A DNA stretch of 64,000 nt. Origin: Acidobacteriota bacterium. Its GTDB lineage: Bacteria > Acidobacteriota > Terriglobia > Acidiferrales > UBA7541. Shown in pieces: positions 25,714 to 43,676 of this stretch (position 1 is its first letter; every line of letters starts with the position of its first letter). Location of the stretch: NCBI GenBank assembly GCA_003225295.1, contig QHYZ01000062.1, positions 1-64,000 of the forward strand, read 5' to 3'. The position numbers and the translations under genes were made by a program. Below the pieces are notes generated by a model. That model was not told where the DNA came from. It saw nothing but the letters and a program-made list of their open reading frames with translations, and ran no database searches.

Positions 25714-28242
25714 TCATTCCCTGGAGGCGTGAATCTCGACATAGTCGAGTGGCGCATGCTCTTCTCTGTCCGGAATCCCCACAATGCGAATGTCGTCCCC
25801 CGGGCGCAGCGCCAATCCAGGAATGTGCCGTCGCTTCGAAGAATCACCTCCAATTTTTGTGGCCGGGAGGGTGTCGTTGGCCATCCATTCATCCACTACC
25901 TGATCGCCCACCACGACCCGAAAATCTGAGTTGCCATTGTTCTGATCGAAGTACACGACGTCTATGTCGTACCACCCGGCGTCGCCTTCAAACCGCAAGG
26001 AAGCCGTACATCCGAGTGGCTGCGCGCATTCGACCGCTTGGCCGCCGGAAGCATTTTCTCGCGGGACGACATCCACGGCCGAGTAGCCTTGAAGCCGCAT
26101 GGCTTCAGCTTCGATGCGATCAGGATAAATACCCACACGGCGCTGCTCATCAGGTATGCCGGACATGCCAAAGAACCAGTTACAGACGGCATCCCGCCAG
26201 ACGATGGCGTGTCCCGCTTGATATTCAAGTCGTGTCAAAACGTCAGAGTAACGCTGCTCATCTATGCGGCCGCTGAGCGATTCCCATTGATGGACGTACT
26301 GCGCGGCGCGTTCCGCACCTTCGTAATGGGAGTCGTAAATGTGCTGGATCACGGTTTTGCCGGACTTCAGCACGCGCGTGTAAGGAACATGGTGGAAGAA
26401 AAGGAGCAACTCGTCCGGAGTGGATTCCGAAGACTCATACAGCTTGGCTACAGGCGGAGGATATTGCCCGACATAGCCCGTGCCGGTGGCCACGGTGCGA
26501 TCCATCCCCACCCCCTCATGGTCAGCGCGGTGCCACTGGCCCCAGCCGTTGTGCTCGGACGATTCCACTCCGGGGCCGTAGTGACTTCCGAGAATGTCCG
26601 TCAATGTTTGAGCCCCCAGCGGACCCGTGTAGCTCTCATAGACCTTCCACGAATTGACTTGCATGTCGGCAATGGTGCTTAACAGGGCCGGATCGTTTCC
26701 AAAGGTCAGCCGTGTCCATTCTTCGGCGATGGTTCTCGGACTTAGATCGGGATTCCACGCCAGGCGGCCAAACCCATAGAGATTTGCCATCGCCAGCGGG
26801 TGACCGAGCCAACTCGCATCGCTACCGACATTTGCCACGCCGACGAATCCGCCCATCGGACGACGAAACGTCTTGCCGGAGGCCAGGTCCTTTACCATTG
26901 CCCCGTCCCCGTTCAGATGCAGGTCGAAGTCCAGCACTTCTTTCCACATAGACGGGAGGAAACATAAATGTCGTTGCTGGCCGGTGTATTCCTGTGAGAT
27001 TTGCAGCTCCATCGCCACGTTCGTGCCTGGCAATCCGGCAAAGAGCGGAGAAACAGGTTCGCGGACCTGAAAGTCAATGGGCCCGTTTTTGATTTGGACA
27101 ACGACGTTGTCATCGAATTTGCCGTCTAGCGGATGGAATATATCGTAGGCGGCTCGCGCGCGATCACTCCTAGGATCTTGCCAGTTGAGATGATGGTCGT
27201 ATACAAAGGCCCGGTAGAAAACGATGCCCCCGTGGGGTTGGAGCGCGCGGGCGATCACGTTGGCGGCGTCCGCCGGTGTTCTGCCATAGGCGGACGGGCC
27301 AGGCCGACCTTCAGAGTCCGCCTTGACAACAAATCCCCCGAAGTCCGGAATCCAACGATAGATCGCGTCTACTTTCTTGCGCCACCATTGCCCGAGACGA
27401 GGATCAAGCGGATCAAAAGTATCCAGCCCTCCAACGACCTTGGGAGCGCTCAAATCAATAGCTACGGCCATCCGAATACCCCATTCGCGGAAGGTGTCAG
27501 CGATGCGAGCAAGTTGCGGCAGAAAATCTTCTTCAAGAAAGTGCGGATTCGCGTTGACATTATTGACGGAGCAGCCGTTGATCCCAATGGAAGCGAGCAA
27601 GCGTGCGTACTCGCGGACGCGCGTCAGATCGGTGCGCACCTTCCCGTTGTCGAAAAAGATGGAGCGTCCGCCGTATCCTCGCTCGATTCCACCATCGATG
27701 TTGTCCCACTGGTCCACCCAGCGTAGCCGAGCGTAGGGCTCTTGGATTTCGTCAAGGGGGGTGACCTCCGTACTTTGAGCAATCTTGCTCAATAGCGCGA
27801 ACACCCCATACAGGACGCCACGATCAGTCATTGCCGTAACGATAAGACACCCCATTCCTCGTACTTGTCCGGAGGTCAGCCAAAAACCTTCTGCACTCAA
27901 GGGATGGGGGGCGTGAAATCCTGGGACCACCGCCTGAATCGATGCCAACGTACCCAAAACAATGGCCTTCTCCCGAGGCGGGCCCTTCCCGGTGCGCAGC
28001 GTCTTTCCCAGCATGCCCTTAACGCCGCGAATGAGCTCCCCTTGCGCGGTGCCCAGCGTCGAAGAATCTCCCAGCACAACTACGGCCGCGGGAAGCGACG
28101 CGTATTTTCCCCGCGCCATCTCCCCGATTGACGCGTACCGCAGCCAGGCATCGTGGCTCGATTCACCAAGCGTGGGATTCGTATAGGCGACTGCGAATAT
28201 CACACCAGCCGAAACCAGCACGCGTAACTTCGGTGTTTTCAT
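25714..28242 (-). CDS. aguA: GH67 alpha-glucuronidase
   Basis: This 842-residue enzyme has a signal-like N-terminus ([21 protein letters not shown]) and the full GH67 catalytic TIM barrel. Expected catalytic residues are visible: Glu311 ([10 protein letters not shown]) as acid, and Asp390 ([10 protein letters not shown]) and Glu418 (QISQEYTGQ) as base pair. The spacing 390-418 equals the family value. A C-terminal domain of about 130 residues ([18 protein letters not shown]... [10 protein letters not shown]) resembles a carbohydrate-binding beta-sandwich of the CBM35 kind. GH67 enzymes release 4-O-methyl-glucuronic acid from the non-reducing end of aldouronic acids from xylan. It overlaps the upstream xylose isomerase gene by 4 bases (ATGA), so the two are translationally coupled. 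An exported form suggests periplasmic action. Confidence 0.95.
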
Positions 28243-29411
28243 CGCAGGCCAGCGAGAAGATCGACCGTGAGTTGGTCCAAGCGCTCGTAGGGCAAGCGTT
28301 TCTTACTGATCGCATCCTTGTCGAAAACATGGGCCAGCAGTCTTGTCGCGCTCTCTGTCGAATACGGACCTGCCTGGAAAGAGCCATTGCCCCCACCGGA
28401 GATCTCCTGGAGGATGGCATGAATCTCTTTGTCTCGGTTCCAACACGCAGCTTTCTCTTTCAGGATCAGATAGGTGCGCATGCAGCCACGCGCAAAGTCC
28501 TTCACCCCGCAGTAATCCTCGGTGCGATAGGCATGCGCATCAAAATGACGCGGTCCGTCGTACCCGACGTCTTCCAAGAATTTTACCAGCCAGAACGAGG
28601 ACTTGAAGTTCGCGGAACCAAAGCGCAAGTCCTGATCGAAACGCCCCGGCATTTGATCGTTGAGGTCGATGTGAAAAAGTTTTCCAGCTTCCCAGGCTTG
28701 CGCGACTCCGTGCATGGAATTCAAGCCCGCCATTTGCTCGTGAGCGACCTCCGGATTGACGCCCACGATCTCGGGATGATCGAGCGTGGGAATGAAGCCG
28801 AGGTAGTGGCCGGTGGTGGCCATGTAGATATCCCCGCGGGGCTCATTGGGTTTGGCTTCCAGCGCGAACCTGAACCCGTACTTTTGGTCAATGTTGTACT
28901 CGCAAAGATAGTTGACCGCGTGGCGGAGGCGCTTTACGGCCTCGTCCGCACGACGGCAGGCGTCGGTTTCGACACCCTCACGGCCGCCCCACAACACAAA
29001 AATCCTTGCGCCTAACTCCGCCCCGAGGTCCATGGCCCGCATGGTTTTTTGCAAGGCGTAGGCGCGCACCTCCGGATCGTTGGCGGTAAAAGCACCGTCA
29101 CGAAAAACGGGGTGAAAGAACAGCGAAACGGTGGCCATCGGAACGACCAGTCCGTTTTCGGCGCAGGCTCTTTTGAACTCTCGCACGATCGCGTCGCGCT
29201 CCCGAGGAGTGGCGTCGATTGGTACCAAGTCATTGTCATGAAGATTGACGCCCCAGGCTCCCACTTCGCCGAGGGTCCTAACGATTTCGATGGGAGAAAT
29301 GACCGGACGAACGAAATCGCCGAACGGATCGCGGCCCCGGTTCCCCAGCGTCCAGAGCCCGAAAGAGAACTTGTGTTCGGCTTGTGGTTCGTACTGTTCA
29401 TTGTTCTTCAT
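28239..29411 (-). CDS. xylA: Xylose isomerase
   Basis: The 390-residue protein is a class I xylose isomerase close in length to actinobacterial enzymes. Catalytic and metal residues are in place: His58 and Asp61 (NLHDND), Glu185 and Lys187 ([10 protein letters not shown]), Glu221 and His224 (PEVAHEQ), Asp249 and Asp252 (FHIDLNDQ) and Asp291 (RHFDAHAYR), plus VLWGGREG. It converts D-xylose to D-xylulose in the cytoplasm. The start at ATG 29411 has GGGAGA 5 bases upstream. The stop overlaps the start of the glucuronidase gene, forming a xylA-aguA operon for glucuronoxylan fragments. A LacI-type operator lies 320 bases upstream, between this gene and a divergent LacI regulator. Confidence 0.96.
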
Positions 29412-29734
29412 GGACTTCTCCCTGGCATCAAGAGGGATGCCTCGATGACCTGAAAATGGATTTCATCGCCAGCTAGCGGCGGAGGCCAAGACTCGTTGGT
29501 CGCTCCATGATCAAGTAACGCATGCCGTCAGTGCCAACATTGTTTTCGAGACCGTAGTTTTGCATAGATTTCAGGCGCGTTATTACGGTCTCCAAACGTT
29601 AGCACCGGGAAGCGCAACTGAAGGTAGCACCAGGACGAATGAAGAGACCGCAGGACCACAGACCTGCCTAACCATGGCAACACAAAAGTGTCCTCGGTGC
29701 GACCAGAACGGAGCGAAAGGAAACGGAAATGATC

Positions 29735-29750
29735 TTAACGTGTACGTTAA
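29735..29750. promoter_or_regulatory. LacI-type operator
   Basis: TTAACGTGTACGTTAA consists of two perfect 7-base half sites (TTAACGT / ACGTTAA) around GT. The half site matches that of the 19415 palindrome. It lies between xylA (minus) and the LacI gene (plus), and a ribosome site with ATG follows at 29817. Confidence 0.65.
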
Positions 29751-29816
29751 CGGCAGTGTTATAGTACCACACGCTTTTCGAATTGCAAGGATTCCTACTC
29801 CTTCTGGAGGCGGCCA

Positions 29817-30058
29817 TGCAGTCTCTTTCTCCATGCGCATTCTTCGGTTCTTTTTCTTTTGGCCCTTGCTTGTGCCCGTGTTCTGGCGCAAAGCTGCCTT
29901 ACCCAAAAGCCCGGGACTTCACGCCGGGGATATACAAGGTCCTCCAAAACGTCAGCGCGGCTTCTTCTACGGGCTCGCATTGGATCCGTTCGTTAGCGTA
30001 CACGGTAAAACTCAAGTCCAGGGCACACCAGTGTTTGCCGTGCCCGCGGATGACGTAA
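29817..30058 (+). pseudogene. Possible remnant of a small exported protein gene
   Basis: ATG 29817 has an excellent GGAGG 5 bases upstream and lies 67 bases after the LacI operator. The direct frame gives an 80-residue cysteine-rich product without a family. In a neighbouring frame the same region encodes LALACARVLAQ, a normal signal-peptide end, so a frameshift in the T-rich run near 29840-29865 may have broken a small exported protein. This is a suggestion only. Confidence 0.25.
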
Positions 30059-30178
30059 GATGGGCTCTCCGGTGTAGTCAACGGGCTCCGGGAAAATTAG
30101 GGTGCCACGACGGCAGGGTCGTCGCGAGCTGGGCTAGTTTTCTCGAGCCATGCACCCGCGGAAGTGTGGGCAGCAAGT

Positions 30179-31279
30179 ATGACCAAACCAAGAAGCGGAA
30201 TCCACTTGATCGCCCACATGGCGAACGTCTCCATTGGAACTGTGGATCGCGCCTTGCACGGGCGCGGAGGGATAAAGGAATCCACGCGCCAGCGGATTCT
30301 GCAAGTTGCGCGACAGATCGGCTATACGCCCAATCTGGCGGCGCGTGCTTTATCGGTTGCTAAAGCCAGCGCTCGAGTTGGAGTGTGCATACCCCGGGAA
30401 ATACACTTTTTCTATGACCAGCTTTGGAGCGGAGTCCTGGATGAAGCTCGTCGCGTCGCACAGCTGGGGCTTCAGTTCCTGAATCGACCCGTTCACGCGC
30501 TCGGAGAAGGAGATACGGCGGTCTTCAAGGAACTCGTACAATGCGGCGTCGACGGAATTATTCTCACCGCAGGAAATCCCAAAGCTCTGACACCTCTCAT
30601 TGACGAAGCGGAAGCGAATGGTATTCGTGTGGTTTGCGTATCTACCGATGCCCCGGAGAGCCGTCGTTCAAGCATTGTCTGCGTGGAACCGTCATTGAAT
30701 GGCAGCCTCGCCGGTGAACTGATGGGCAAGCTCGTTCCGCGAGCTTCGAAGGTGGCGGTTGTTGCCGGCATGCTCACCGCCGAGGATCACCGCAAGAAAA
30801 CCGATGGTTTTTCGGAAGCGTTCCCGCGACACTGCACTGGCGGGAAGATCGCGGGCATCATTGAAGGGCACGAAGATGAAGATGAAAGTTTCCAAAAAAC
30901 GTTCGACCTCCTGCGCCGTGTCCCGAACCTTGCGGGTCTCTACGTAAACACTGTAAATTGCTTGCCGGTGTGCCGTGCGCTTGGAGCGCGGGGCCTGGCC
31001 GGAAAAGTAAAGCTAATAACCACGGATCTCTTCGCCGAGATGTCCCCGTACTTCCAAAAGGGCACCATTACAGCGTCGATTTACCAACAACCACATCGCC
31101 AAGGTCAGATAGCCGTCCGGGTCATGGCCGACAACCTCACCAACAAAATACACTTCCCTCCCGCTGTGCACCTGAGCCCCGGAGTAGTGATGTCGTCCAA
31201 TTTACATCTGTTCCGAGAAATGAGATCGGCGGATTCCAAACTCGATGAGCCAGGTCTGAAGAGCCGCCTCATCCTTTAG
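30179..31279 (+). CDS. LacI family transcriptional regulator
   Basis: The 366-residue protein opens with a LacI-type helix-turn-helix (GIHLIAHMANVSIGTVDRALHGR, hinge ARALSVAK) and continues with a periplasmic-binding-protein-like sensor domain (residues about 65-335; GVCIPREIHFFYDQLWSGVLDEA, DGIILTAGNPKALTPLIDEA, VAVVAGMLTAEDHRKKTDGF, GLYVNTVNCLPVCRALG). ATG 30179 aligns better with family starts than the in-frame GTG 30164. It lies divergent from xylA-aguA with an operator in between, so control of xylan or xylose use is probable. The second, perfect copy of the operator upstream of the TonB receptor at 19487 may be another target. Confidence 0.92.
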   Translation: MTKPRSGIHLIAHMANVSIGTVDRALHGRGGIKESTRQRILQVARQIGYTPNLAARALSVAKASARVGVCIPREIHFFYDQLWSGVLDEARRVAQLGLQFLNRPVHALGEGDTAVFKELVQCGVDGIILTAGNPKALTPLIDEAEANGIRVVCVSTDAPESRRSSIVCVEPSLNGSLAGELMGKLVPRASKVAVVAGMLTAEDHRKKTDGFSEAFPRHCTGGKIAGIIEGHEDEDESFQKTFDLLRRVPNLAGLYVNTVNCLPVCRALGARGLAGKVKLITTDLFAEMSPYFQKGTITASIYQQPHRQGQIAVRVMADNLTNKIHFPPAVHLSPGVVMSSNLHLFREMRSADSKLDEPGLKSRLIL

Positions 31280-31413: not shown

Positions 31414-33072
31414 TTACCGGTGGGAAACGTTTCTCAACCCCGGCGAAATCTCGTAGGCTTTCTCGAACTCTGCGCGGGATTGCTCCTCTTTTCCTTCCTG
31501 ATGCAGCGCCAATGCAAGATTGTAGTGCGCTTCCGCATAGAGCGGCTTGAGGCGCACAGCCTCGATAAACTCCGCCTGCGCCATGCGAACATCGCCCGCC
31601 TGCAACAGTACCAGCCCGAGATTGTTGTGCGCTTCCGCGAAATTCCGGTCCCGGCGCACGAGTTCACGGAAGACATTGGCCGCGCCAGCGGTATCGTTCT
31701 CCTGGCTGAGGACCAATCCCAATTGTATCCGGGCGTCAGTGTATTGGGGATCGAGACTGATGGCTTCATGCAGCTCTCGAGCGGCTTCCTCGAGACGCCC
31801 CGTTTGCTCCAGCGCGAGGCCCAGATTGTAGTGTGCCTCCGCCAGATCAGGATCGGACATCACCGCCTGCCGGAACTCCTCGAGCGCGCGTTTGCTATCG
31901 TTCTGGCGCCAATAGAGCAGTCCGAGGCTCGAGTGGGCCTGCGCATAGTCCGGTTTCAGCTCCAGCGCTTTCTCATAGGCCGCCAAGGCACGTGCTGCAT
32001 CTTGCTTGCGCTCCCAAATTACGCCCAGATAATAATGGCCGGTCGGCAGCTCGGGACTTTGCTCGATGGAGGTCTGAAAAAGTGCCAGCGCATCGTCGAG
32101 CTTTTGCTGCTTCAGCGCTTCCACGCCCTGGAGAGTGAGATATTTCGATTGCGCCAGGCGCGCCCGGAACTCATGCAGGGCGTTCAGATCATCCAGCTCC
32201 TTTTTCGCCGCGCTGGTTTCGCCCTGAGCGCGCAAAGCGATACCCAGGCTGTAGTGCGCCTTTTCGAAATCAGGCTTCAGCTCGATGGCTCGCCGGAATG
32301 CTGCGGTCGCGCCGGCTATGTCGCCGCCGGATTTGAGCTCCATGCCCAGGTTATATTGCGCCTCTGGATCTTGGGGATCGATTTCGACAGCTTTGCGGAA
32401 CTGGGCGAAGGCGCCCGCGTGATCGCCCTGACGGCGCAGCGTCACTCCCAGCAGCGAGTGCGCCCGTGCGAACTGGGGATTAAGTCGGAGGGCGCGGCGA
32501 AACTCAGCCGCGGCGCCATCCAGATTGCCGAGCTGTCCCTCGGTCAGCCCCAACTCTAAATGCATCTCGGCAGAGGGCTTCGATTGTAGCGCCCGCCGTA
32601 GCTCGCGCTCAGCGGCCGAAGGATCGTTCTGTTGCAAATAAATGCGCGCCAGGAGGCGGCGTGCTGCGGCGTTCGCGGGATCGAGGTCTACCGCCGTGCG
32701 TAGTTCCTTGAGCGCGGCGGCCTGATCGTTCAGATCGTACAAGGTCGCGCCTAATCCGTAGTGCGCATCGGCCCACTTCGGTTTGAGCCGCAGCGTGGCT
32801 TCGAACTCTGCAGCGGCCTGTTTGGCGTCACCCTTGTATTTCAGCGTCAGCGCCAAATTGTAATGCGTATCCGGGTCGTTGGGTTTGAGGTCCAGGGCCT
32901 TGTGATAACTCGCGATGGCTTGATCCCAGGACTTGTGGCGCGAAAGCTCGATGGCCTGTTGACGGTAACTCTCGACAGTCTGCCCAAAAGAAGGTGCTGC
33001 GAGCCAGAGGCCCAGAAGTAGCAGAAACACCTTGGGCCTACACCCTGTCCGAAGTTGAGGGAATTGTTTCAT
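31414..33072 (-). CDS. Exported TPR repeat protein (large)
   Basis: The 552-residue protein has a signal peptide (KVFLLLLGLWLAAPSFG) and about fourteen TPR units covering almost the whole chain (repeated DPDTHYNLALTLKYKGDAKQ-like units; a short break near residues 290-305 with FRARLAQSKYL). It lies 62 bases after a TonB receptor gene in the same direction, separated by a hairpin at 33095. As in other places in this window a receptor is followed by a TPR protein. Its role is unknown; scaffolding of envelope complexes is likely. Confidence 0.88.
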   Translation of the reverse strand: MKQFPQLRTGCRPKVFLLLLGLWLAAPSFGQTVESYRQQAIELSRHKSWDQAIASYHKALDLKPNDPDTHYNLALTLKYKGDAKQAAAEFEATLRLKPKWADAHYGLGATLYDLNDQAAALKELRTAVDLDPANAAARRLLARIYLQQNDPSAAERELRRALQSKPSAEMHLELGLTEGQLGNLDGAAAEFRRALRLNPQFARAHSLLGVTLRRQGDHAGAFAQFRKAVEIDPQDPEAQYNLGMELKSGGDIAGATAAFRRAIELKPDFEKAHYSLGIALRAQGETSAAKKELDDLNALHEFRARLAQSKYLTLQGVEALKQQKLDDALALFQTSIEQSPELPTGHYYLGVIWERKQDAARALAAYEKALELKPDYAQAHSSLGLLYWRQNDSKRALEEFRQAVMSDPDLAEAHYNLGLALEQTGRLEEAARELHEAISLDPQYTDARIQLGLVLSQENDTAGAANVFRELVRRDRNFAEAHNNLGLVLLQAGDVRMAQAEFIEAVRLKPLYAEAHYNLALALHQEGKEEQSRAEFEKAYEISPGLRNVSHR

Positions 33073-33134: not shown

Positions 33135-36100
33135 TTACCAGGTGAACTTCGCGCTGATTTGACCTTCGCGCAAGCCGCTACCAGTGTCTCCGAATGACCT
33201 GGTACTGGTCACTCTGCCGAACGTGTCGGTGTTGTTGAAATTGCCGTGCGGGTTGTTGAAATTAGCGTGGTTAAATAAATTGAAAAATTCCGCTCGAATT
33301 TCGAACCCCATGGCCTCTCTGATCATCGTCCTCTTAGAGATCCCGAAGTCGGTGACGTTGATTCCCGGGCCGTGGAAGAACTGGCGGTTGGCGTTGCCAA
33401 ATCCGCCGTTTGGACCACTGGCAAATGCGTCCGGTAGGAAGTAGGTGTTCGCTCCATTGGGACCATCCTTGCGGGGATTTTGGATCACGACCTTCCCCAC
33501 AATGTTGGGTACATCGGTGTTCCCACCTCCAACCAGCGAGTAATCCCCGCCCTGGCTGAGCCCGACGGGCAGACCGCCGGAGAGCCGAGTAACACCGTTC
33601 AGGCTCCAGCCTTGCGTCAAGCGCTTCGGCAGTTTGCCGAAGGCCCGCTCGAAGGGAACGGCCCAGATGTAACTCACCACGAAGTTGTGGGTGATGTCGT
33701 ATGCAGAGAGCGAGCGGCTGAGCCGGGGGTTCAAGAAGTTCACCCACTGGCCGAAGCCGGAAGAATTGTCCATCGCCTTGGAGAACGTGTAGGCCGCCAG
33801 GAAGGTAAAATCCGCGGCTTTGCGCTCCACTGTGATCTGTCCGGCGGAGTAGCTCGAATTGGCGATGTTGGCCGTGAAGCTGTTGTCCTGACTGAAGTCC
33901 GGCCCCAGATGATCACGCGTGCCGGCTATGCAGGTGCTGCCAGCTGGGGTTCCCGACGGACATGGGGTGGTAAACGCCTTAGCCGGGGCGGGCGTGCCTG
34001 GAGACAGAGTATACGTCTGGTTCTCGCCGTTGCGCCCACATGTAGGCGTGGCGCCCAATTGGTTGAGCTGCAGGCAAAGAGCGAAGTCGCCGGGATTGGC
34101 GTCGTATTGGGAGATTAGCTTGTGGCCCTGCGTTCCGACATAAGCCAGCGTCAGCACCGTCGATTTACTCAGCTCCCGCTGAATGGACAAATTGTAGTGT
34201 TCCGCATAGGGCGGCCGATTGTGAATGTCGTAGCCCGGCGAAAACGAGATGGGCAGATAAATTGAATAGTCTAGCGTTTTATTAGCCGGGCTTCCCGGCT
34301 TCGGTAACACAAACGGGAAGCGCTGGGTTTCTGACATTCCGTTAGCGACTTCCTGGAACGGCTGGTCGAAGTTGACTGGGTTCGGCGATACCCAATACAG
34401 CCCAAAGGGAGCATCTCCAACCTCGTAGAACAGGTTCAGGTCTTCGATCGACGTGTAGTAGATGCCATAAGACGCTCGGATGCTGGACTTGCCGGGGCCA
34501 CCGAAGATCTTGGCCGCAATCCCATCCTTGAAGCCGGGCGAGTAAGCTATGCCGAGCCGCGGAGAGAAGTCGTTATACCGAGTGGGAGCGAGTGTGCTCG
34601 GAATGCCCGGGTCCCCCGGCACCACCCACCCTAGCGGGGCAGTCGGGAACTGTGTGGACTGCAAGCCAGGCACGATGGTCTCAATCTTGCCCTGAGTGTC
34701 ATACCACGGCATGCTTACTTCCCAGCGTACACCGAGATTTAGCGTGACGTTCGGCTTGACCTTGTAGGTGTCCTCAGCGAACGCTCCGCCATAACGCGAC
34801 CGTGAATCTAGGAACTGCTGGCTGCACTGGTTATAGTTTTGCGCTGCGCCGAGCAGGAAGTCTGCGAAATCTGAGCCGCTTATGCTGCCATCGAAGGTGA
34901 AGTCTCCGTTTGGCGCGCACGTATTGCGCTCATTGATCTGCAGGTAGCGGAACTCACCGCCAAACTTGAGTGTGTGCCGGCCTCGCGCTTTCGAGAAAGT
35001 GTCGGAGACGTGCCAAGTGTTGTTAGGCTGAAACGTCGTCAGCGTATTCACTCCCAGGGAGAAGTTATTGAAGTATATCGGCGGCACCGTCTGTGGAAAT
35101 CCAGGAGGGCCCGAGGGGATGATGCCGAGAGTTCCTGGGCCCGTTGCGAAACCGAGATCCGAGAGTTTTGCGAAGCTACTACTTGGCTCGTCCGTGTGCG
35201 TAGCTGTCCGGAAGAAGCTCAAACGAAATTGATTCACCGCGCTTGCACCGTGAGTTTTGTTGTTACTGAGGACGACCTGCTGTGCACGGGTTACCGTGAC
35301 GCTCGAAAAGCCTGGCACGCTGGCGTCCAGCGCGTTAAAGTTATTGGAGTCGTCGAAGTGATAATAAAACGACCAGTCGCCGGTCATCTTGTTGATAAAG
35401 TCCACGCGTTGTCCGGCCTTGTCATCCTTTATCTTGTTCCTTTGGCTGGCGTCGGCGAAATTGCCATTACCATCGCCTATCGGGATGTAGGGTAGTATTT
35501 TGGTTGCCGGCAAGGAAAAGGCGGCGGACGGTATCGTAACCGTTTGTGAGACCGGGTCAGTCGGAAACACGCACTGGGTGGTGTTGGCGCAGGTTGGTGT
35601 GGAATAAGGTTCCCCATCGACGACCGTCTGACCGGTGGTGGCGGCGAGCCGTTGCGTCAGCGTATCCGCCCAATTTAATCCACACGTAGCACCGCCGGGG
35701 CAGGGTTGACTGCTCACGAGTAGTGGCTTGCCGCTGGAATCCGCAAAGTCAGCCGGGGTGAAGGTGCCACTCCGCTGGTCCGCTGTCGGCACCGTCACCG
35801 AACCCGTGCTGGCTCCCCTAACCTCTCGCGTTCCCTGATAGTCCGTGAACCAGAAGAGCTTGTTCTTCCAGAAAGGCCCTCCCACGGCGTAGCCGAACTG
35901 GTTACGCCGCAGTTCCGCTTTCGGTTGATCGATCGGGTCGAAGAAACCTCGCGCGTCGAATTTGTCGTTGCGCAAGAATTCGAACGCAGATCCATGAATG
36001 CCATTGGTGCCGGACTTGGTAATCGTGTTCATTACTGCGCCGCTGAATTTTCCGTACTCGGCATCAAAACTATTGGTGATCAGTCGGAATTCCTCCACCG

Positions 36101-36776
36101 AATCGAGATTGGGGACCAACCCGGCACCCAGGTTGCGTCCTTCGCTCACGTCGCCGCCGTTCACCAGGAATGCGTTGGCCGTCTCCCGCTGGCCGTTTAC
36201 CGAAAGGTTGCCGGCGTTCGGCGAGTATCCTCCGGAAACTGACCGGTCCTGCTGCATGGTGCCGGACGTAACGGGCACCACTCCCGCTTGCAGGCCGAGA
36301 AGATCTAAGTAGCTGCGGCCATTCAATGGCAGCGCCAGCATTTTCTTTGTTTCAATAACGTCACCCAGCTGCGTGCTTTCCGTCTGCACTTGCACCGCGT
36401 TGGCGGTAACGCTGACCTCTTGTTGCATGCTGCCAACTTCGAGCGTAACGTCAATGCGCAATTGGTCGTTCACTTTCAAGTCGATATCTGTGGTGATGAA
36501 CTGTTGGAATCCGGGGGCGCTGGCGGTGAGCGTGTAGTTTCCGGCCGGTAGAGCCAGTATCCGGTAGGAACCGTCAGCGGCCGAAGTGGTATCCTTCTTG
36601 AAATTGGTTTGCACATTCGTGGCTACGATGCGCGCGCCCGCAACCACAGCTTGCGTACGGTCGTGCACCACACCCAGAATCGATCCGGTTACGTCCGCGC
36701 GCAGCGCAGTCGGGCCAAAAATTATTGCCAGAACAAGCAGGAGAGCTGAAGCCACACGGCTATGGCGATTTTGCAT
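33135..36776 (-). CDS. TonB-dependent receptor, Oar-like
   Basis: The 1213-residue outer-membrane protein starts at ATG 36776 (a longer frame to 36806 would precede the signal). It has a signal peptide (RVASALLLVLAIIFGPTALRA), a carboxypeptidase-regulatory-like domain (residues about 28-110, TGSILGVVHDRTQAVVAGARI), plug (PLNGRSYLDLLGLQAGVVPVTSG, EFRLITNSFDAEYGKFSG, GSAFEFLRNDKFDARGFFDP) and barrel ending in KFTW. It belongs to a minus-strand run with an alpha-galactosidase-like enzyme and a DUF4380 protein upstream and a TPR protein downstream, which suggests carbohydrate uptake. The ligand is not predictable from the barrel. Confidence 0.92.
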   Translation of the reverse strand: MQNRHSRVASALLLVLAIIFGPTALRADVTGSILGVVHDRTQAVVAGARIVATNVQTNFKKDTTSAADGSYRILALPAGNYTLTASAPGFQQFITTDIDLKVNDQLRIDVTLEVGSMQQEVSVTANAVQVQTESTQLGDVIETKKMLALPLNGRSYLDLLGLQAGVVPVTSGTMQQDRSVSGGYSPNAGNLSVNGQRETANAFLVNGGDVSEGRNLGAGLVPNLDSVEEFRLITNSFDAEYGKFSGAVMNTITKSGTNGIHGSAFEFLRNDKFDARGFFDPIDQPKAELRRNQFGYAVGGPFWKNKLFWFTDYQGTREVRGASTGSVTVPTADQRSGTFTPADFADSSGKPLLVSSQPCPGGATCGLNWADTLTQRLAATTGQTVVDGEPYSTPTCANTTQCVFPTDPVSQTVTIPSAAFSLPATKILPYIPIGDGNGNFADASQRNKIKDDKAGQRVDFINKMTGDWSFYYHFDDSNNFNALDASVPGFSSVTVTRAQQVVLSNNKTHGASAVNQFRLSFFRTATHTDEPSSSFAKLSDLGFATGPGTLGIIPSGPPGFPQTVPPIYFNNFSLGVNTLTTFQPNNTWHVSDTFSKARGRHTLKFGGEFRYLQINERNTCAPNGDFTFDGSISGSDFADFLLGAAQNYNQCSQQFLDSRSRYGGAFAEDTYKVKPNVTLNLGVRWEVSMPWYDTQGKIETIVPGLQSTQFPTAPLGWVVPGDPGIPSTLAPTRYNDFSPRLGIAYSPGFKDGIAAKIFGGPGKSSIRASYGIYYTSIEDLNLFYEVGDAPFGLYWVSPNPVNFDQPFQEVANGMSETQRFPFVLPKPGSPANKTLDYSIYLPISFSPGYDIHNRPPYAEHYNLSIQRELSKSTVLTLAYVGTQGHKLISQYDANPGDFALCLQLNQLGATPTCGRNGENQTYTLSPGTPAPAKAFTTPCPSGTPAGSTCIAGTRDHLGPDFSQDNSFTANIANSSYSAGQITVERKAADFTFLAAYTFSKAMDNSSGFGQWVNFLNPRLSRSLSAYDITHNFVVSYIWAVPFERAFGKLPKRLTQGWSLNGVTRLSGGLPVGLSQGGDYSLVGGGNTDVPNIVGKVVIQNPRKDGPNGANTYFLPDAFASGPNGGFGNANRQFFHGPGINVTDFGISKRTMIREAMGFEIRAEFFNLFNHANFNNPHGNFNNTDTFGRVTSTRSFGDTGSGLREGQISAKFTW

Positions 36777-36927
36777 GACACACCCCGAATGAGGGTAGCA
36801 TGTCACAAAACGCTAGCGGCAATCAAGATGGTCGTTTAGGTCGTTTATTCGGCGGCTCTGGAGTGTGGTGTAGATCTCGGGCCGCGGAACGGAAAAATTC
36901 GCCGGAAGTAGCTTTTTGGGTCGTGGG

Positions 36928-39210
36928 CTAGCGCTTCGCCTCCGCCGGTGCGGGCGTGGCCTCAAGCAAGAGGTTCTCGCTGAATTCCGCCTTCAGCTTT
37001 GCTGTCGGTCCCGTCACCACGCCATAAGCTGTCTTGTTCACGTAATCCATGATCCTGTAATTCTTCCCCGCTGCCAGACCGCGCAATTCCAGTTCGCCCT
37101 TCCAAATCCCTTCAGGAGACTTCTGCTTGAGCACCTTCATTGGCTTTTCCGGCGCGTAGAACGCGTAGAACATCCTTCCGTCCTTCTCGATGGCATAGGC
37201 CTCCGGGGAATCGTAGCCATAAACGTAAAGGTCGAGAAAATTCCCCTTTGAAAGCATCTTCTCGTTGTACAGGGCGATCCACTTTTTCCAGTGCGCCTCT
37301 TTGCCAGGTTTCAAATATACATTTTTCAGTTGTGGCCCGTATTCAGGCCAGGTGAATTTCGTGCCCAGCACGCCGCCGGTCCCCAGGGTCGACGCGAAAT
37401 CATCCCCCAGATCTTCTTCTTTGTCGCCTTCACCACTAATTCGTGTCAGTTCAACATGATCACCATAAATAGCCGCCCGCGGCCCAAGAAGAGCCTTGTA
37501 CATCTTGATCCGTCTGCGCACCTGCACCGAGCCCACGGGATCAGCCGTCACGGCCTGGTCCATGTAGCGAAACCACGCCAAGCTCGGCGGCGTGCCGCAC
37601 GGGCAGCTCTGCGTCACACTGTTCGGCTTCAGCGCCCGCGTGGTCTCGAAAATCGTTTTGTATACTTCACCCATCGCGTATACCGAATCCAGCGGAGACT
37701 TGTGGTGGTGCTTCGGGTTATAGCATGGGGGCGTTGCGTAAACGTTGTCCAGCTTGTGCCCGTCGAATCCCCAATCACGAATGAAGCGCTCCGTCAGCCC
37801 TTGGTAATAAGCTTGCACTTCCGGTACCGCCGGACAAAGTGTCGCCAGATTGCGCGTCATCCGCGCCGGTTTCCCGTTTTTATCAAGTGCCAGCCAGTCC
37901 GGATGCTCTCTGACTACTTCTGAAACGACGAATTTGTGGCCGCCATATCCGTTGTGCCCGTCTTCGACCGCCAGCGGCAGCCACCACAACTGCACGTTGA
38001 TCCCTTGCGCGTGAAAATCCCTCGCCATGTTCTGAATCGCATCATCCGCAAAGGTATCCTTCCGCGGCTTCCAGTCGCCGTAATTGTCGAACCACCGGTC
38101 GTCCAGCGTCGCCCAATGAATGCCCAGCTCCTTTAGTTTCGGGATGGTCCCCAGCATCTGTTTGGGCGTCACTTCGGATTCATAGCCCCAACCGCACCAG
38201 CTGACCGCGTAGTTTTCCTCATTGTTTCTGGGCCGGGTCAATCCCTCGCGCTCCACCGCGTTTGACCACAGGCTCAGCGGTTCGTAATAGTCGCCTTTGT
38301 ATACCGCGAGGAACGTGCGCGGGGTCGAATATACGTCTCCCGTTTTCAGCTTCCTATTCGCCGGCAAGCGTACCGACGCCAACACGCGCTGATCTCTGGT
38401 CGTTTCCACGGGAATCGAGAGAACCAATGGCAGCGTTTCAATGTGTCCGATTGCTTCTCCAACACTCCGCGTCCAGAACGCCACCACTGGAATGCCCCCG
38501 CCCACGCGCCCCAAATCTCCCTGTACCTCCACGGGCGCCCCGAATGGGTTCTCTTGTGAAAATTTTGCTGGCACCCGAAGCACATCGTCCTTGCCCCAGT
38601 TCAGGCTGGACCCGAAGAACGACCACATCTCATGGGGGGCAGCTCGCCAATCACTCCGTTGGGCATTCAGTCGGTGCCTCTGGAGCGAGATGCTGTCGAG
38701 CACAACGTCTTTCCGTCCCGCATTGCGCAGTGCAGCCGAGAGCAGCGCCATCGTCGGAGAGTCGTCGTACACTTCAATGGTCAAGATCTCTTCGAGACCG
38801 GTGCTCGCGCTCGTCCCAGGAACGTCCAGGTGTTTTCCGACTCGTCCAAGCTTGCCGGTGGCCTCGGCTACCTTCGCGTGCGTCAAATCAAATATCAAGT
38901 CGCGCACTTCGGCGCGCCCAGCGATCAGCTGCTGTCCCGCTTCCTTTCCCGGATCTTCCAGCGTGAGCATCTGGCCGGCACTCTGCAGGCTTGCCTGCAA
39001 GTAACCGGAAGGCCGCAGCAAAAACTCCGCTGCTCGCGTATGCATGTGGATGCCATCGCTCTCCGTGCTGACGGTGATCGCTGATGTTTCGACCGTCACG
39101 GATGCAGCCGCCGGTTGCGCTTCCTTGTTCTTACAGCCGGCGCATTGCACCAGCCCCGCGGCTAGCAGCATCGCGAGTGTTCGTCCCCACGACGTCCGGT
39201 TATTTCCCAC
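36928..39210 (-). CDS. Exported GH36/GH27-like alpha-galactosidase (clan GH-D)
   Basis: The 760-residue enzyme is taken from GTG 39210, with GGTGG about 7 bases upstream, followed by a signal peptide (TLAMLLAAGLVQCAGC, weak lipobox). An N-terminal beta-sandwich domain (to about residue 320) precedes a TIM barrel. The nucleophile is probably Asp488 in FDGHKLDNVY (GH36/27 K-x-D motif) and the acid/base Asp557 in MDQAVTADPVG. YAVSWCGWGYESEV and HWATLDDRWF are typical barrel starts. It likely removes alpha-linked galactose or a similar sugar outside the cytoplasm. Neighbours are DUF4380 (upstream) and a TonB receptor (downstream) in the same direction. The exact GH family and specificity cannot be fixed by eye. 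Confidence 0.82.
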   Translation of the reverse strand: MGNNRTSWGRTLAMLLAAGLVQCAGCKNKEAQPAAASVTVETSAITVSTESDGIHMHTRAAEFLLRPSGYLQASLQSAGQMLTLEDPGKEAGQQLIAGRAEVRDLIFDLTHAKVAEATGKLGRVGKHLDVPGTSASTGLEEILTIEVYDDSPTMALLSAALRNAGRKDVVLDSISLQRHRLNAQRSDWRAAPHEMWSFFGSSLNWGKDDVLRVPAKFSQENPFGAPVEVQGDLGRVGGGIPVVAFWTRSVGEAIGHIETLPLVLSIPVETTRDQRVLASVRLPANRKLKTGDVYSTPRTFLAVYKGDYYEPLSLWSNAVEREGLTRPRNNEENYAVSWCGWGYESEVTPKQMLGTIPKLKELGIHWATLDDRWFDNYGDWKPRKDTFADDAIQNMARDFHAQGINVQLWWLPLAVEDGHNGYGGHKFVVSEVVREHPDWLALDKNGKPARMTRNLATLCPAVPEVQAYYQGLTERFIRDWGFDGHKLDNVYATPPCYNPKHHHKSPLDSVYAMGEVYKTIFETTRALKPNSVTQSCPCGTPPSLAWFRYMDQAVTADPVGSVQVRRRIKMYKALLGPRAAIYGDHVELTRISGEGDKEEDLGDDFASTLGTGGVLGTKFTWPEYGPQLKNVYLKPGKEAHWKKWIALYNEKMLSKGNFLDLYVYGYDSPEAYAIEKDGRMFYAFYAPEKPMKVLKQKSPEGIWKGELELRGLAAGKNYRIMDYVNKTAYGVVTGPTAKLKAEFSENLLLEATPAPAEAKR

Positions 39211-39260
39211 TGTTTCACCACCAACGCTTGCCGGTCGCCAAGTCCCACGACCGATGAAAG

Positions 39261-39309
39261 CCCCGGCCCTTCTGCGCCGGGGACGGGGATCAGAGGCAAG
39301 CGCAGAAGG
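39261..39309 (-). promoter_or_regulatory. Mutually exclusive hairpins between DUF4380 and GH genes
   Basis: In the minus-strand transcript CCTTCTGCGC (39309-39300) can pair perfectly with GCGCAGAAGG (39277-39268). The second arm also overlaps the stem edge and forms the loop of another hairpin, CCCCGGC / GCCGGGG (39282-39276 with 39267-39261). The two structures exclude each other, as in an attenuator, but no T-run follows the short hairpin. Confidence 0.4.
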
Positions 39310-39348
39310 CTCCCCGGACCCCGCACCTTTAACCAACACGTTCGCGTC

Positions 39349-40749
39349 TCATTGAATTCCGGCGGAAGTTTCTACCGCCACTTCTCCTAGTGCTCCGCGA
39401 TCCAGCCCATGGGAATCGACCAGGTGCAGAGAAATCCTGCCCACCCGGCCCGGAACGGCCGCTGTAGTTTGCAACAAAAGGAGGTTCCTGGGATCGACTT
39501 GCGTAATCGGTTGGGTACCCATGGCCATGCCCCCAGCCCCGTAGAAATGGACTACCAGTTTCCCGGAAAAGAAAACTCCAAAAGCGCCAACGAGTCTGAT
39601 CTTGCCGGCGCCAGCATCCTGCACTGCATGAAGGGGTTGGAGGATCACTCCTGCGTCCGTCACACCTTGGAAGTCCTTGTCGGCCCGGGTGGGAAACCAC
39701 TGCGTGTCGAAATGGTATGACTCCCCAGGGTCGAGCCGCACCATCGGCGAGTTAAGCTCGGCCTCCATATACAGAGCTGGCGGCTCTTTATCGGGAGATC
39801 CGAAACTGGCTGTACCATCAGGGTGCTGCCGCAGTTGAGAACCATTCGTCCAAAATATGACCGAGGCCTTTCCGGGGTATGGTTTCGTTTCGTCGTACCG
39901 AAATCGCTCTACCATCGCGTAGCGGCTGTCGCCATCCACGGCAGCCAACCAGCCGTCCTTTGAATCGAGCCACAACTCTGCTGCCAGAGGAACATAATGT
40001 AGAGCGAAGAGCCCATTCTCGCGCACCTCTGCCGCGGCATTCTCTGCGGGACCGAATTTCACATGATACCGGTTGAGGTAGCTACTCGATGAATTCGTTC
40101 TGCTGAAGGCCCAGAAATTCTGATTGTGGCGCGTGGCATCCCGGGCGTCAGCGGTATTGTACTGAGAGACCGATTGCACGGACCACGCGATGGGATGCCC
40201 GCTCGCGTTCTTTATCACCGCGTGAAAGTTGATGCGCGGCGACTCCGCCTCGAGACTCACCATGCGCGTAAACTGCAACCCCGTCTGAGGATCAGCTGGC
40301 CCGGTCAAGGAAATTTCGCAGCGCTGCCCTTGCGAGAGAATTTGGAACTCAAACAGACCATCATCCAGCAAATCAGAATTGCCTGCCCAGTGCTGCTCGT
40401 CCTCGCTTCCCTCCGGGAGCACCCACAGCTTGTCGCCGCCATAGTTAAACCATTCGCTGTTGGAGGGCGGGAGATGTTTCCCGGCATACCGCGGATTCAC
40501 AAACAAATAGGGATGGCCATCGAAGATGACTTGCATCAGCCTGCCGCCGTTCTGCGGCACAAAAATTAGTTTTACCCATGGATTGGAAACCTGCTGCGCT
40601 TGCCAGCCCAGATACTTGATTTCCTCGACCTGGCAAGCGGCGGCGGCCACCTCGGGCTTGTGTGGCGCGCGAACGCCGAAGTGAACAAAGGTCGTCGGAT
40701 AAAGCGTGAGTACCGCCGCCAAACGCCGGAGCAACATGATCTTTTTCAT
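39349..40749 (-). CDS. Secreted DUF4380 domain protein
   Basis: The 466-residue product has a signal-like N-terminus (LLRRLAAVLTLYPTTFVHFG) and the DUF4380 beta-sandwich, recognisable from NPWVKLIFVPQNGGRLMQVIFDGHPYLFVNP and WFNYGGDKLWVLPEG. The fold resembles galactose-mutarotase-like domains that bind sugars. The remaining C-terminal part (residues about 370-466) is another beta-rich region. It precedes the alpha-galactosidase-like gene by 138 bases in the same direction and is divergent from the PLP enzyme gene. Function is unknown; a carbohydrate-binding or modifying role is inferred from fold and context. Confidence 0.75.
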   Translation of the reverse strand: MKKIMLLRRLAAVLTLYPTTFVHFGVRAPHKPEVAAAACQVEEIKYLGWQAQQVSNPWVKLIFVPQNGGRLMQVIFDGHPYLFVNPRYAGKHLPPSNSEWFNYGGDKLWVLPEGSEDEQHWAGNSDLLDDGLFEFQILSQGQRCEISLTGPADPQTGLQFTRMVSLEAESPRINFHAVIKNASGHPIAWSVQSVSQYNTADARDATRHNQNFWAFSRTNSSSSYLNRYHVKFGPAENAAAEVRENGLFALHYVPLAAELWLDSKDGWLAAVDGDSRYAMVERFRYDETKPYPGKASVIFWTNGSQLRQHPDGTASFGSPDKEPPALYMEAELNSPMVRLDPGESYHFDTQWFPTRADKDFQGVTDAGVILQPLHAVQDAGAGKIRLVGAFGVFFSGKLVVHFYGAGGMAMGTQPITQVDPRNLLLLQTTAAVPGRVGRISLHLVDSHGLDRGALGEVAVETSAGIQ

Positions 40750-41103
40750 TGCCGATCGCTTTTCACCCTGTTTTCTTTCCGAGCTTTAGAATGGATATTG
40801 CATCTCGCACGCTCTGCGCGCAATGGCCTTTCCTATCTTCGCTTGCCACCCTATCCCCGCCGCAAAGAGTTCATTGCAAAACAGTTCGTAATGAAACGAA
40901 ATAAATTGCTACACATCAAGAAATATGTGATAAGAACGCCAAATGCGCGGGGAATTCCAAACTCGTTGAGTGCTCCATCCGCCGGACGCCGGCGAGCGCA
41001 ATGGCATTGACAAACGAAGCGGGCGGATTCTATTGCACGGTATGACTAGCTCCATCGAACCTGGCAAGACCTATTAACCTTTCTACCACACGGAGGTTCT
41101 TGA
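40750..41103. promoter_or_regulatory. Divergent promoter region
   Basis: The 354-base gap separates the divergent DUF4380 and PLP-enzyme genes, so it must hold promoters for both. It includes TTCGT-N6-ACGAA (40885-40900), an inverted repeat inside an A/T-rich stretch, as a possible regulator site. No small gene is visible. Confidence 0.4.
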
Positions 41104-42399
41104 ATGTCGTTCATGCCTGATTTCAGCCGTAGGGGTTTTATTCGCTTAGCCGCTGCCGCGCCGCTCCTGGGCCAGATTGCCGCTAGAAATGTGCTGGCAA
41201 GTGCTGCCACTGCGCTCGGCAAAGATTCACGCCAGAACGTCTACACGCGTCTCGGCGTAAAGACCATCATTAATTGCCGGGGCACCTGGACATACTTGAG
41301 CGGTTCGCTGGAATTTCCCGAAGTGCGGGCGGCGCAGCGAGAGGCTTCGGAATACTTCGTAAACATGTTTGAATTGCAGCATGCGGCCAGCCGGCGTCTT
41401 GCTGAATTGACCGGTGCCGAAGCTGGCATGGTCACTTCCGGGGCGGCTGGCGCGATGGCCTCCGCTGCCGCTGCGTGCATGGCCGGCAGCGATCCAAAAA
41501 ATATCTGGCAGCTTCCCGACACTACGGGACTGAAGCAGGAAGTCATCATGGTGGGCGGCAGGAGTGCATTTGACAATGCTATTCGGCTGACGGGCGCCAA
41601 GCTGGTTCTCGTCGGAACAGCCGAGGAACTGGCTAACGCCATCAACCAGAACACCGCGATGATCTACACCACTCATCTGGGATCCGACTTGCAGACAGAA
41701 AATGCCGTAGCAAAAAAATATAGTATTCCCATGCTTCTCGATGACGCGGCCGGTATTCCCCCCATAGCCAACATCAAGTTATACGCACAAATGGGTCTGG
41801 ACATGTACACCTTCTCGGGCGGGAAGGGGCTCCGTGGCCCACAATGCAGCGGTCTTTTACTTGGCCGTAAGGATCTGATTGAAGCCGCGATGCTGAACAC
41901 CAGCCCGTGGGAAGGTGCTGTCTGTCGTGCCATGAAAGTTGGCAAGGAAGAAATAGTAGGTCTGCTCCTGGCAGTCGAGACCTGGCTGAAAACCGATTTT
42001 GATGCTCTCAATCGCGAATGGAATGCTCGCGTCGAGCGCATCGCGAAACTCGTGAAGACGGTGTCGGGCGTTGAAACCGACATTTCAATACCCAAGGATG
42101 GCAATCGCTATCCGACTCTTTACATTTCATGGGATGAAGAAAAGTGGGGTTTTACGGTGAGGGACTGTGTACAAAAACTGCGCGCCGGCGATCCGGTAAT
42201 TGAGGTTGCTGGCGCGGATAATCCCAGCATTGTTCCGGCCGTTCGGGAAGGAAATCCAAAGCAAAGTTCGAAGGAATCGGCACAACGCCGCAGGTTGGAG
42301 CTGGTCTCTTCAACTATTCAGCCCCATGAAGCAATCATCGTGGGCCAGCGTATTCGTGAACTTCTAAGTGTCGCTCGAAAGGCTGCACCTGCCGCTTAG
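41104..42399 (+). CDS. TAT-exported SelA-like PLP-dependent enzyme
   Basis: The 431-residue protein begins with a twin-arginine signal (FSRRGFIRLAAAAPLLG) and then a fold-type I PLP domain of the SelA / D-glucosaminate-6-phosphate ammonia-lyase kind. The Schiff-base lysine is Lys241 in FSGGKGLRGPQ, and Asp213/Asp214 (LLDDAAG) is the pyridine-nitrogen ligand. VTSGAAGAMASAAAACMAGSD forms the cofactor phosphate region. Such enzymes act on hydroxy-amino or amino-sugar acids and can release ammonia through enamine/imine intermediates. Export of a PLP enzyme is unusual. Its stop overlaps the start region of the following triple-RidA gene, which would dispose of enamine/imine products. Confidence 0.9.
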   Translation: MSFMPDFSRRGFIRLAAAAPLLGQIAARNVLASAATALGKDSRQNVYTRLGVKTIINCRGTWTYLSGSLEFPEVRAAQREASEYFVNMFELQHAASRRLAELTGAEAGMVTSGAAGAMASAAAACMAGSDPKNIWQLPDTTGLKQEVIMVGGRSAFDNAIRLTGAKLVLVGTAEELANAINQNTAMIYTTHLGSDLQTENAVAKKYSIPMLLDDAAGIPPIANIKLYAQMGLDMYTFSGGKGLRGPQCSGLLLGRKDLIEAAMLNTSPWEGAVCRAMKVGKEEIVGLLLAVETWLKTDFDALNREWNARVERIAKLVKTVSGVETDISIPKDGNRYPTLYISWDEEKWGFTVRDCVQKLRAGDPVIEVAGADNPSIVPAVREGNPKQSSKESAQRRRLELVSSTIQPHEAIIVGQRIRELLSVARKAAPAA

Positions 42400-42404
42400 T
42401 GATC

Positions 42405-43676
42405 ATGAGGATTCGCGAAGTGCCAAACCAGAGAAAATCTCACTTCCGGCAATGTTTGCTGGGAACCTTGATATTCGCAGCCGGTAGCACACAGGCCCAG
42501 GTGCACCCGGTCGAAGTTCCCCAGCGGGGACAGCCCTTGAGCTCCCCGCGCTCCGCCGCAGTGGACGCGGGTGACTACGTGTACCTTTCGGGACAGGGGG
42601 CACAACGTGCAGACCATAGTATGCCTGACAAATTTGAAGAACAGGCCAGCCAGGCGCTCGAAAATATCAAAACGATTGTCGAGGCCGCCGGCTTGAATAT
42701 GGAGCATATTGTCTATGTCCAGGTTTATCTCGAAGACCTAGGCAACTACGAGAAACTGAACGACGTCTTCGCAAAATACTTTCCCGGCACTCCCCCGGCC
42801 CGCGCGGTGCTTGGAGTTTACCGCTTATCTCCATCGTCCATCGAGATCAACGCTGTTGCCGTTCGCGATCTCACCGGACGCAAGGCGGTTATCCCCCCCC
42901 ATTACAAATCCGGCGAACCATTTTCGCCCGGCATATTAACGCATGACCGTTTGTTTGTTTCTGCGATCGAGGGGCGCGACCCACTCGCCAACACGGTCCC
43001 CGATGATGCCGCGGTTCAAACGGATCTCGCCCTTGATGGACTCCAGGCGGTTGTCGAGGCAGCTGGCTTGAAACTCAGCCATATGGTCTTCGTGAATCCC
43101 TACTTGACCCAGAAAGTACCGATGCGGCTGATGAACGAACGTTACGCTCGTCGATTTGAATTTGGTAACACCCCGGCGCGAGCCACCATAGAAGTCACCG
43201 CTTTGCCTCACCATGCCCAAATCGAATACACCGGGGTGGCCGTGCGCGACTTGAGCCTTCGTCGTGCCGTGCGTCCCAAAAACATGCCGCCAAGCCCCAC
43301 TGCCAGCCCCTGTGTCTTCGCTGGCGAAACGTTGTACTGTTCCGCGAAGAGTGGATTTATCCCCGGGCCAAACGGCGGCGTCTATGGTGCTACAACGGCA
43401 GTACAACTCCGCCAGACCATGCGAAACCAGCTTGATAACCTGGAAGAGGCCTCCCTGGATTTCAGCCAGGTCGTCTCCACAACTGTTTATCTCGACAACC
43501 TCTCCGATAGTGAAGCGTTCAACAAGGTCTATGCGCAATACTTCAAGGCGGCTCTCCCCGCCCAAACGATGGTGCAGCAGCTTCCATCTTCTAACCGCCC
43601 ACCCGATGCGGAAGGGCACTTCCCTGACCTGGAGCAGATGTCGCTGATAGCGGTAAAACAGGTCCCTAAGAACTAA
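42405..43676 (+). CDS. Exported triple RidA-domain protein
   Basis: The 423-residue protein has a signal peptide (CLLGTLIFAAGSTQA) and three tandem RidA (YjgF/UK114) domains at about 35-160, 165-285 and 295-420. The catalytic arginine of RidA, which binds imine carboxylates, is present in domain 1 (PPARAVLGV) and domain 2 (TPARATIEV), but is glutamine in domain 3 (LPAQTMVQQ). RidA proteins hydrolyse reactive enamines and imines to ketoacids and ammonia. ATG 42405 follows the PLP gene stop by 5 bases; an in-frame GTG 42399 overlaps that stop. The tight coupling and shared export argue for joint action. Fused triple RidA proteins are unusual to my knowledge. Confidence 0.92.
   Translation: MRIREVPNQRKSHFRQCLLGTLIFAAGSTQAQVHPVEVPQRGQPLSSPRSAAVDAGDYVYLSGQGAQRADHSMPDKFEEQASQALENIKTIVEAAGLNMEHIVYVQVYLEDLGNYEKLNDVFAKYFPGTPPARAVLGVYRLSPSSIEINAVAVRDLTGRKAVIPPHYKSGEPFSPGILTHDRLFVSAIEGRDPLANTVPDDAAVQTDLALDGLQAVVEAAGLKLSHMVFVNPYLTQKVPMRLMNERYARRFEFGNTPARATIEVTALPHHAQIEYTGVAVRDLSLRRAVRPKNMPPSPTASPCVFAGETLYCSAKSGFIPGPNGGVYGATTAVQLRQTMRNQLDNLEEASLDFSQVVSTTVYLDNLSDSEAFNKVYAQYFKAALPAQTMVQQLPSSNRPPDAEGHFPDLEQMSLIAVKQVPKN

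Follow-up and report, generated by a model that had tools for sequence, protein, structure and literature searches.

The question raised by this locus is whether an exported PLP protein and an exported protein with three RidA domains, encoded by two adjacent genes in a 64,000-nucleotide stretch of Acidobacteriota DNA (hereafter the window), form a module that works outside the cytoplasm. RidA chemistry is usually discussed as cytoplasmic damage control, and here it is apparently exported with a PLP enzyme repeatedly across Acidobacteriota, a major soil group. The original prediction, made from the letters of the window, had read the two genes as a PLP lyase coupled to a triple-RidA protein in the periplasm. 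Our results indicate a real and conserved exported PLP/RidA module, for which the proposed mechanism is plausible.

The exported PLP protein

Both predicted open reading frames were recovered at their positions. The first (41104–42399, + strand), preceded by a Shine-Dalgarno-like GGAGG (41092–41096, +) read from the sequence, encodes a SelA/DgaE-like fold-type I PLP protein of 431 aa, as indicated by PF03841, TIGR01437 and an AF2 model (pLDDT 85). Its N-terminus, MSFMPDFSRRGFIRLAAAAPLLG, includes a twin-arginine (Tat) leader, SRRGFIRLAAAAPLLG (41104 to approximately 41202, +), which combines the twin-arginine motif with a hydrophobic stretch as in Tat substrates. R9 and R10 of this leader, together with Lys241 (codon 41824–41826, +; within SGGKGLRGPQ), the expected Schiff base for PLP, were invariant across all 24 aligned relatives, even if these include paralogues of only 35–45% identity, and most further relatives display SRRxF[IVFM]K in the leader. 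In addition, Lys241 aligned with the lysine of 7lc0 and of 8t7j. The Tat-type SelA-like protein with its Lys241, as well as the conservation of this lysine in homologues, was thus borne out.

Concerning its family, the PLP protein scored above the gathering cut-off of PF03841, the SelA superfamily (37.9 vs 22.8 bits), and displayed the SelA-like fold with a PLP lysine that characterizes DgaE-type lyases. Scores for the DgaE-type models were highly significant and below their cut-offs, with 169.9 bits (E 7e-50; cut-off 385.3) for the ammonia lyase model TIGR01437 and 142.9 bits (E 1e-41; cut-off 600) for NF047797. Selenocysteine synthase SelA proper was ruled out, since TIGR00474 gave 34.2 bits against an equivalog cut-off of 267.9. 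The original prediction of PLP lyase and RidA chemistry in the periplasm fits the gene context described below, whereas the ammonia-lyase reaction itself can only be inferred, because the PLP protein does not reach the DgaE cut-offs and the solved structure closest to it is that of an O2-dependent enzyme. Indeed, structure comparison of the model ranked Cap15 first (8t7j, Z 36.7), then DgaE (7lc0, Z 35.4) and threonine aldolase (Z 25), and the modelled match to Cap15 could suggest that the PLP protein is a periplasmic O2-dependent oxidase or monooxygenase-decarboxylase, the imine of which would be hydrolysed by RidA; PvdN, a Tat-exported and oxygen-using PLP enzyme, would be a precedent. However, the two leading Z values are close, the sequence score is slightly better for DgaE (110.6 bits) than for Cap15 (104.2 bits), and an elimination agrees better with neighbours encoding a deacetylase, a lactonase and a keto-deoxy aldolase, so that we consider an oxygenase fairly unlikely and retain a DgaE-like elimination as the preferred reading. 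Note that, at residues 150–153, the PLP subfamily of the window displays a one-residue gap where paralogues have a His, and that DgaE and Cap15 also carry a His in this stretch; judging from the alignment, a shift in reaction is possible.

The exported triple-RidA protein

The second gene (42399–43676, +) may start at GTG 42399 (425 aa), which overlaps the TAG stop of the PLP gene by one base, or six bases on at ATG 42405 (423 aa); the overlapping stop/start region noticed earlier therefore exists with the GTG start. Its product is an exported triple-RidA (3x-RidA) protein, with three PF01042 matches (190.9 bits vs a cut-off of 27.3), a TIGR00004 score of 195.6 bits (above the cut-off of 106.25) and an AF2 model of pLDDT 87 and pTM 0.86. 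The PF01042 stretches and this model together place three RidA domains in one chain, presumably as a pseudo-trimer, and the best Foldseek matches of the model were single-chain chorismatases (~365 columns, TM ~0.5) and RidA monomers. The chorismatase match over ~365 columns agrees with a covalent trimer, as presumed for 3x-RidA proteins.

A Sec-type leader, MRIREVPNQRKSHFRQCLLGTLIFAAGSTQA (42405 to approximately 42497, +), consists of a hydrophobic stretch before AQ and has equivalents in relatives, being modest in the window and strong in the relatives. The catalytic Arg of imine-hydrolysing RidA proteins, taken as Arg105 of TdcF, is kept in domain 1 (42552–42863, +; Arg135, codon 42801–42803) and domain 2 (42915–43244, +; Arg261, codon 43179–43181), whereas domain 3 (43305–43577, +) carries Gln389 instead (codon 43563–43565). 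The three domains, the Sec-type leader and the two catalytic arginines correspond to the original prediction, which had also proposed that the third domain lost its Arg and might serve for binding only. The loss holds for the window; at this position, the five closest sequences (window included) have E or Q in four cases and R in one. A generally binding-only third domain was ruled out, since the Arg is present in nearly all other triple-RidA relatives, including that of the isolate Acidobacteriaceae bacterium KBS 96. From these alignments, the Arg loss appears recent and confined to near relatives.

Export leaders and selection on both genes

Export was judged from motif, hydropathy and conservation. 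Leaders are found in both partners across relatives: the triple-RidA relatives have clear hydrophobic ones, and twin-arginine leaders are frequent among single-domain RidA partners; the ordinary RidA of the host genome (G000:C143) is devoid of a leader. Both genes are under purifying selection, with dN/dS of 0.08–0.18 against the close relatives L163 and L164, values that rule out pseudogene decay.

Linkage of the PLP and RidA genes

A RidA-alignment scan of 84,980 species genomes provided 211 loci, of which the best 80, as triple-RidA loci, were kept. All titles among these best 80 of 211 were acidobacterial except L227, labelled Acidimicrobiia, and in 49 of the 80 a relative of the PLP gene lay no more than 3.5 kb away, in most cases immediately upstream and in the same orientation. 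In the reciprocal direction, 37 of 95 exported-PLP loci from the genomes of the class had a RidA gene within 3 kb, when ~3 were expected from the RidA density farther off in the same 95 loci (51 per Mb near vs 6 far). This enrichment rules out chance adjacency, and the predicted pair is indeed conserved in related genomes. Neighbours were counted by tblastn, as ORF-based labels had missed genes in GC-rich contigs. In addition, the PLP and RidA genes of 8 pairs overlap by ATGA, and within the genus of the window a close PLP orthologue occurs in five genomes, each with a triple RidA directly downstream, while sampled members devoid of this orthologue also lack the triple RidA. The genes, their leaders, conservation, linkage and neighbours were all established by computation.

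The pairing is a strong tendency and not an obligatory one. The tree of 93 PLP proteins required at least 15 changes of the RidA-neighbour label, meaning that the pairing was gained or lost repeatedly (labels of L052 and L053 were set to RIDA3 by total span, L052 actually having two single-domain RidA genes). Neither partner was nearby for 48 of the 93 PLP genes, and in two genomes (G129 and G036) the triple RidA is located elsewhere, away from the PLP gene. That about half of the PLP genes have no adjoining RidA and that some triple-RidA genes stand alone would be expected if no pathway were shared, with RidA scavenging imines generally in the periplasm or acting like a chaperone, and with the PLP enzyme serving envelope metabolism; such independence appears very unlikely to us given the strong enrichment, the repeated pairing and the translational overlap. 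We consider it probable that the two proteins act together as an exported module.

Some arrangements deserve mention in their own right. Two loci, L071 (G077:C254) and L072 (G053:C383), have a triple RidA between two different Tat-type PLP genes. In L052 (6869–7908; G042:C17), the tandem single-domain RidA genes lie opposite a PLP orthologue, and one of them or both carry a Tat-like leader.

Gene neighbourhood in the window and in the host genome

In the window, the divergent neighbour of the pair encodes a DUF4380/TTE1925-mutarotase-like protein (39349–40749, −), for which the family matches are weak and below cut-off. It is adjoined by a Melibiase-like glycoside hydrolase (36928–39339, −; PF02065, 57.5 bits), followed by a TonB-dependent/Oar-like outer-membrane protein (33135–36806, −), the class of which was named from sequence and size, and by a TPR protein (31414–33072, −). 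Near genomes have Oar-like relatives upstream of the pair, with TPR relatives in the interval. Genes for a quinoprotein, an amidohydrolase, a lactonase and an MFS carrier are absent beside the pair in the window locus. A second exported pair, the paralogue on C334, lies in a run of consecutive mutarotase-like, quinoprotein, Tat RidA, Tat PLP and MFS genes. The pathway of the window pair is thus borrowed from relatives and from the C334 paralogue. The only two long EF_0837-like matches of the host genome adjoin other SelA-like genes, and PqqC is present.

Elsewhere in the window, a GH67 alpha-glucuronidase, a xylose-isomerase-like protein and a LacI-type regulator (25714–31279) look like a glucuronoxylan-type cluster upstream of the pair, and FG-GAP/UnbV_ASPIC repeat proteins lie near both window ends (3922–5604 and 60838–62640). 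In the host genome, one SelA-like PLP gene beside an EF_0837-like gene (L057, G000:C354, 17310–18459) is broken into separate open frames of 173 and 288 aa, and is either a pseudogene or an assembly error.

Pathway neighbours in relatives and proposed mechanism

Several gene types recur around the pair in relatives. Among the 80 triple-RidA loci (the best 80 of 211), a mutarotase-like relative lies within 3.5 kb in divergent orientation in 27, and a quinoprotein dehydrogenase within 3.5 kb in 11, with more just beyond. An EF_0837-type amidohydrolase occurs within 3 kb of 22 of the 95 PLP loci, where its density is 30 per Mb near vs 2 far; genes for a cupin and for an MFS carrier of the galactonate family also recur. 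Around the same 95 loci, the quinoprotein (13 near vs 8 far per Mb) and MFS genes (10 near vs 9 far per Mb) were not denser near, and their support comes from gene order conserved in the genus and in triple-RidA loci. As an example, a single run in KBS 96 (L226) holds both partners, with enolase-family, IolE-like, PLP, lactonase-like, EF_0837-like, lactonase-like, 3x-RidA, HpcH/HpaI aldolase and galactonate-family MFS genes.

The quinoprotein of relatives keeps a TPHDxxDxD motif, has no Cys-Cys pair, carries an Asp at a position that is Glu in its nearest solved relative, and resembles the acido-empty-quinoprotein model TIGR04528. The quinoprotein near the pair in L191 (2668–4290, −) combines a high acido-empty-quinoprotein score and the TPHDxxDxD motif with a score above the PQQ alcohol dehydrogenase cut-off. 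In another locus (L062, 7366–10274; G121:C29), a PLP paralogue follows imidazolonepropionase-like and glutamate formimidoyltransferase-like genes, which from their sequences read like histidine breakdown.

Taken together, the recurrent neighbours fit a route in which an amino sugar is oxidized in the periplasm to an aldonic acid, which is deacetylated and deaminated, and a 2-keto-3-deoxy acid is imported. On this basis we infer the location in the cell, the reaction, the substrate and the order of steps. The PLP enzyme would fold around its cofactor in the cytoplasm before Tat export, and the 3x-RidA would follow the Sec route. In the periplasm, the PLP enzyme would eliminate water from a 2-amino-2-deoxy-aldonic acid such as D-glucosaminate, leading to deamination, and RidA would hydrolyse the released enamine/imine to a 2-keto-3-deoxy acid and ammonia, thereby protecting the neighbouring PLP enzyme and driving the reaction. 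In relatives, the route would run from an aldose through mutarotase, quinoprotein dehydrogenase, lactonase, N-deacetylase, PLP enzyme and RidA, after which a galactonate-type MFS carrier would import the product and an HpcH/HpaI aldolase would cleave it. For this whole periplasmic (acetylated) amino-sugar pathway, with PLP deamination of the 2-amino aldonic acid and RidA clean-up, we see the chances as evenly balanced. Its widest form, in which Acidobacteriota use exported proteins in the periplasm to oxidize the sugar, open the lactone, deacetylate, deaminate by PLP and hydrolyse the enamine/imine with a dedicated protein, and import only the 2-keto-3-deoxy acid, is proposed more tentatively, as a possible but somewhat doubtful extension.

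The enolase-family neighbour opens another route, as its score of 276 lies above the cut-off of 200.65 for the o-succinylbenzoate synthase model; N-acylamino-acid racemases belong to this family. With the EF_0837-like genes close to the 22 PLP loci, it could point to the breakdown of N-acyl D-amino acids by an N-acylamino-acid racemase, an EF_0837-like deacylase, a PLP ammonia lyase and RidA. However, the enolase-family protein has no leader, and the mutarotase-like, quinoprotein, lactonase-like, galactonate-type carrier and aldolase genes point to sugar acids, so that N-acyl D-amino acids seem an unlikely substrate class and a 2-amino aldonic acid remains our preferred one.

If the periplasmic amino-sugar-acid pathway is true, RidA would for the first time have an exported function linked to a specific PLP partner. 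The conserved pair in related soil bacteria suggests that nitrogen-sugar breakdown occurs outside the cytoplasm. The role of RidA in amino-sugar-acid catabolism, where OngD is essential yet unexplained, can now be tested, as well as whether amino sugars are deaminated by soil bacteria prior to import.

Comparison with known systems

A literature search, chiefly outside subscription papers, found no report of a periplasmic RidA or of an exported PLP/RidA pair. The original prediction that no periplasmic PLP/triple-RidA pair had been described therefore agrees with the literature found, but the triple-RidA form itself was known (PMC4433059). Indeed, 3x-RidA proteins (such as EF_0115) were named by Niehaus et al. 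2015 and read as covalent trimers, in a paper that mentions neither signal peptides nor the periplasm (PMC4433059). The window protein shares with this subset three fused RidA domains and a presumed covalent trimer, and differs in having a leader and in its recurrent association with a PLP protein.

A cytoplasmic precedent for the proposed route is the oxidative chitin (ong) pathway of marine Pseudoalteromonas for N-acetylglucosaminate, which likewise combines a deacetylase (OngB), a PLP deaminase (OngC, fold III) and an essential, single-domain RidA of 127 aa (OngD), OngB and OngC being reported as cytoplasmic (PMC9537276). In contrast, the PLP fold of OngC is unrelated to the fold-type I SelA-like enzyme of the window, and no cluster with both an OngC-type fold-III deaminase and OngB was found beside the window pair.

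For the PLP protein itself, DgaE (7lc0; TIGR01437, NF047797) shares the SelA-like fold type I and the PLP lysine, with 29% identity over 349 aligned residues. DgaE is cytoplasmic and acts on a phosphorylated substrate, whereas the window protein has a Tat leader and lower scores than the DgaE models require. Cap15, the nearest solved fold (28% identity), is a cytosolic O2- and PLP-dependent monooxygenase-decarboxylase acting on 5′-C-glycyluridine in capuramycin biosynthesis (PMC7497351), whereas the gene context of the window PLP protein and its relatives is catabolic. PvdN of Pseudomonas is likewise a PLP enzyme exported to the periplasm by Tat, but it serves pyoverdine maturation and has no named RidA partner. 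Altogether, the parts themselves are known, 3x-RidA proteins since 2015 and the Tat export of a PLP enzyme from PvdN, and their exported pairing appears to be new.
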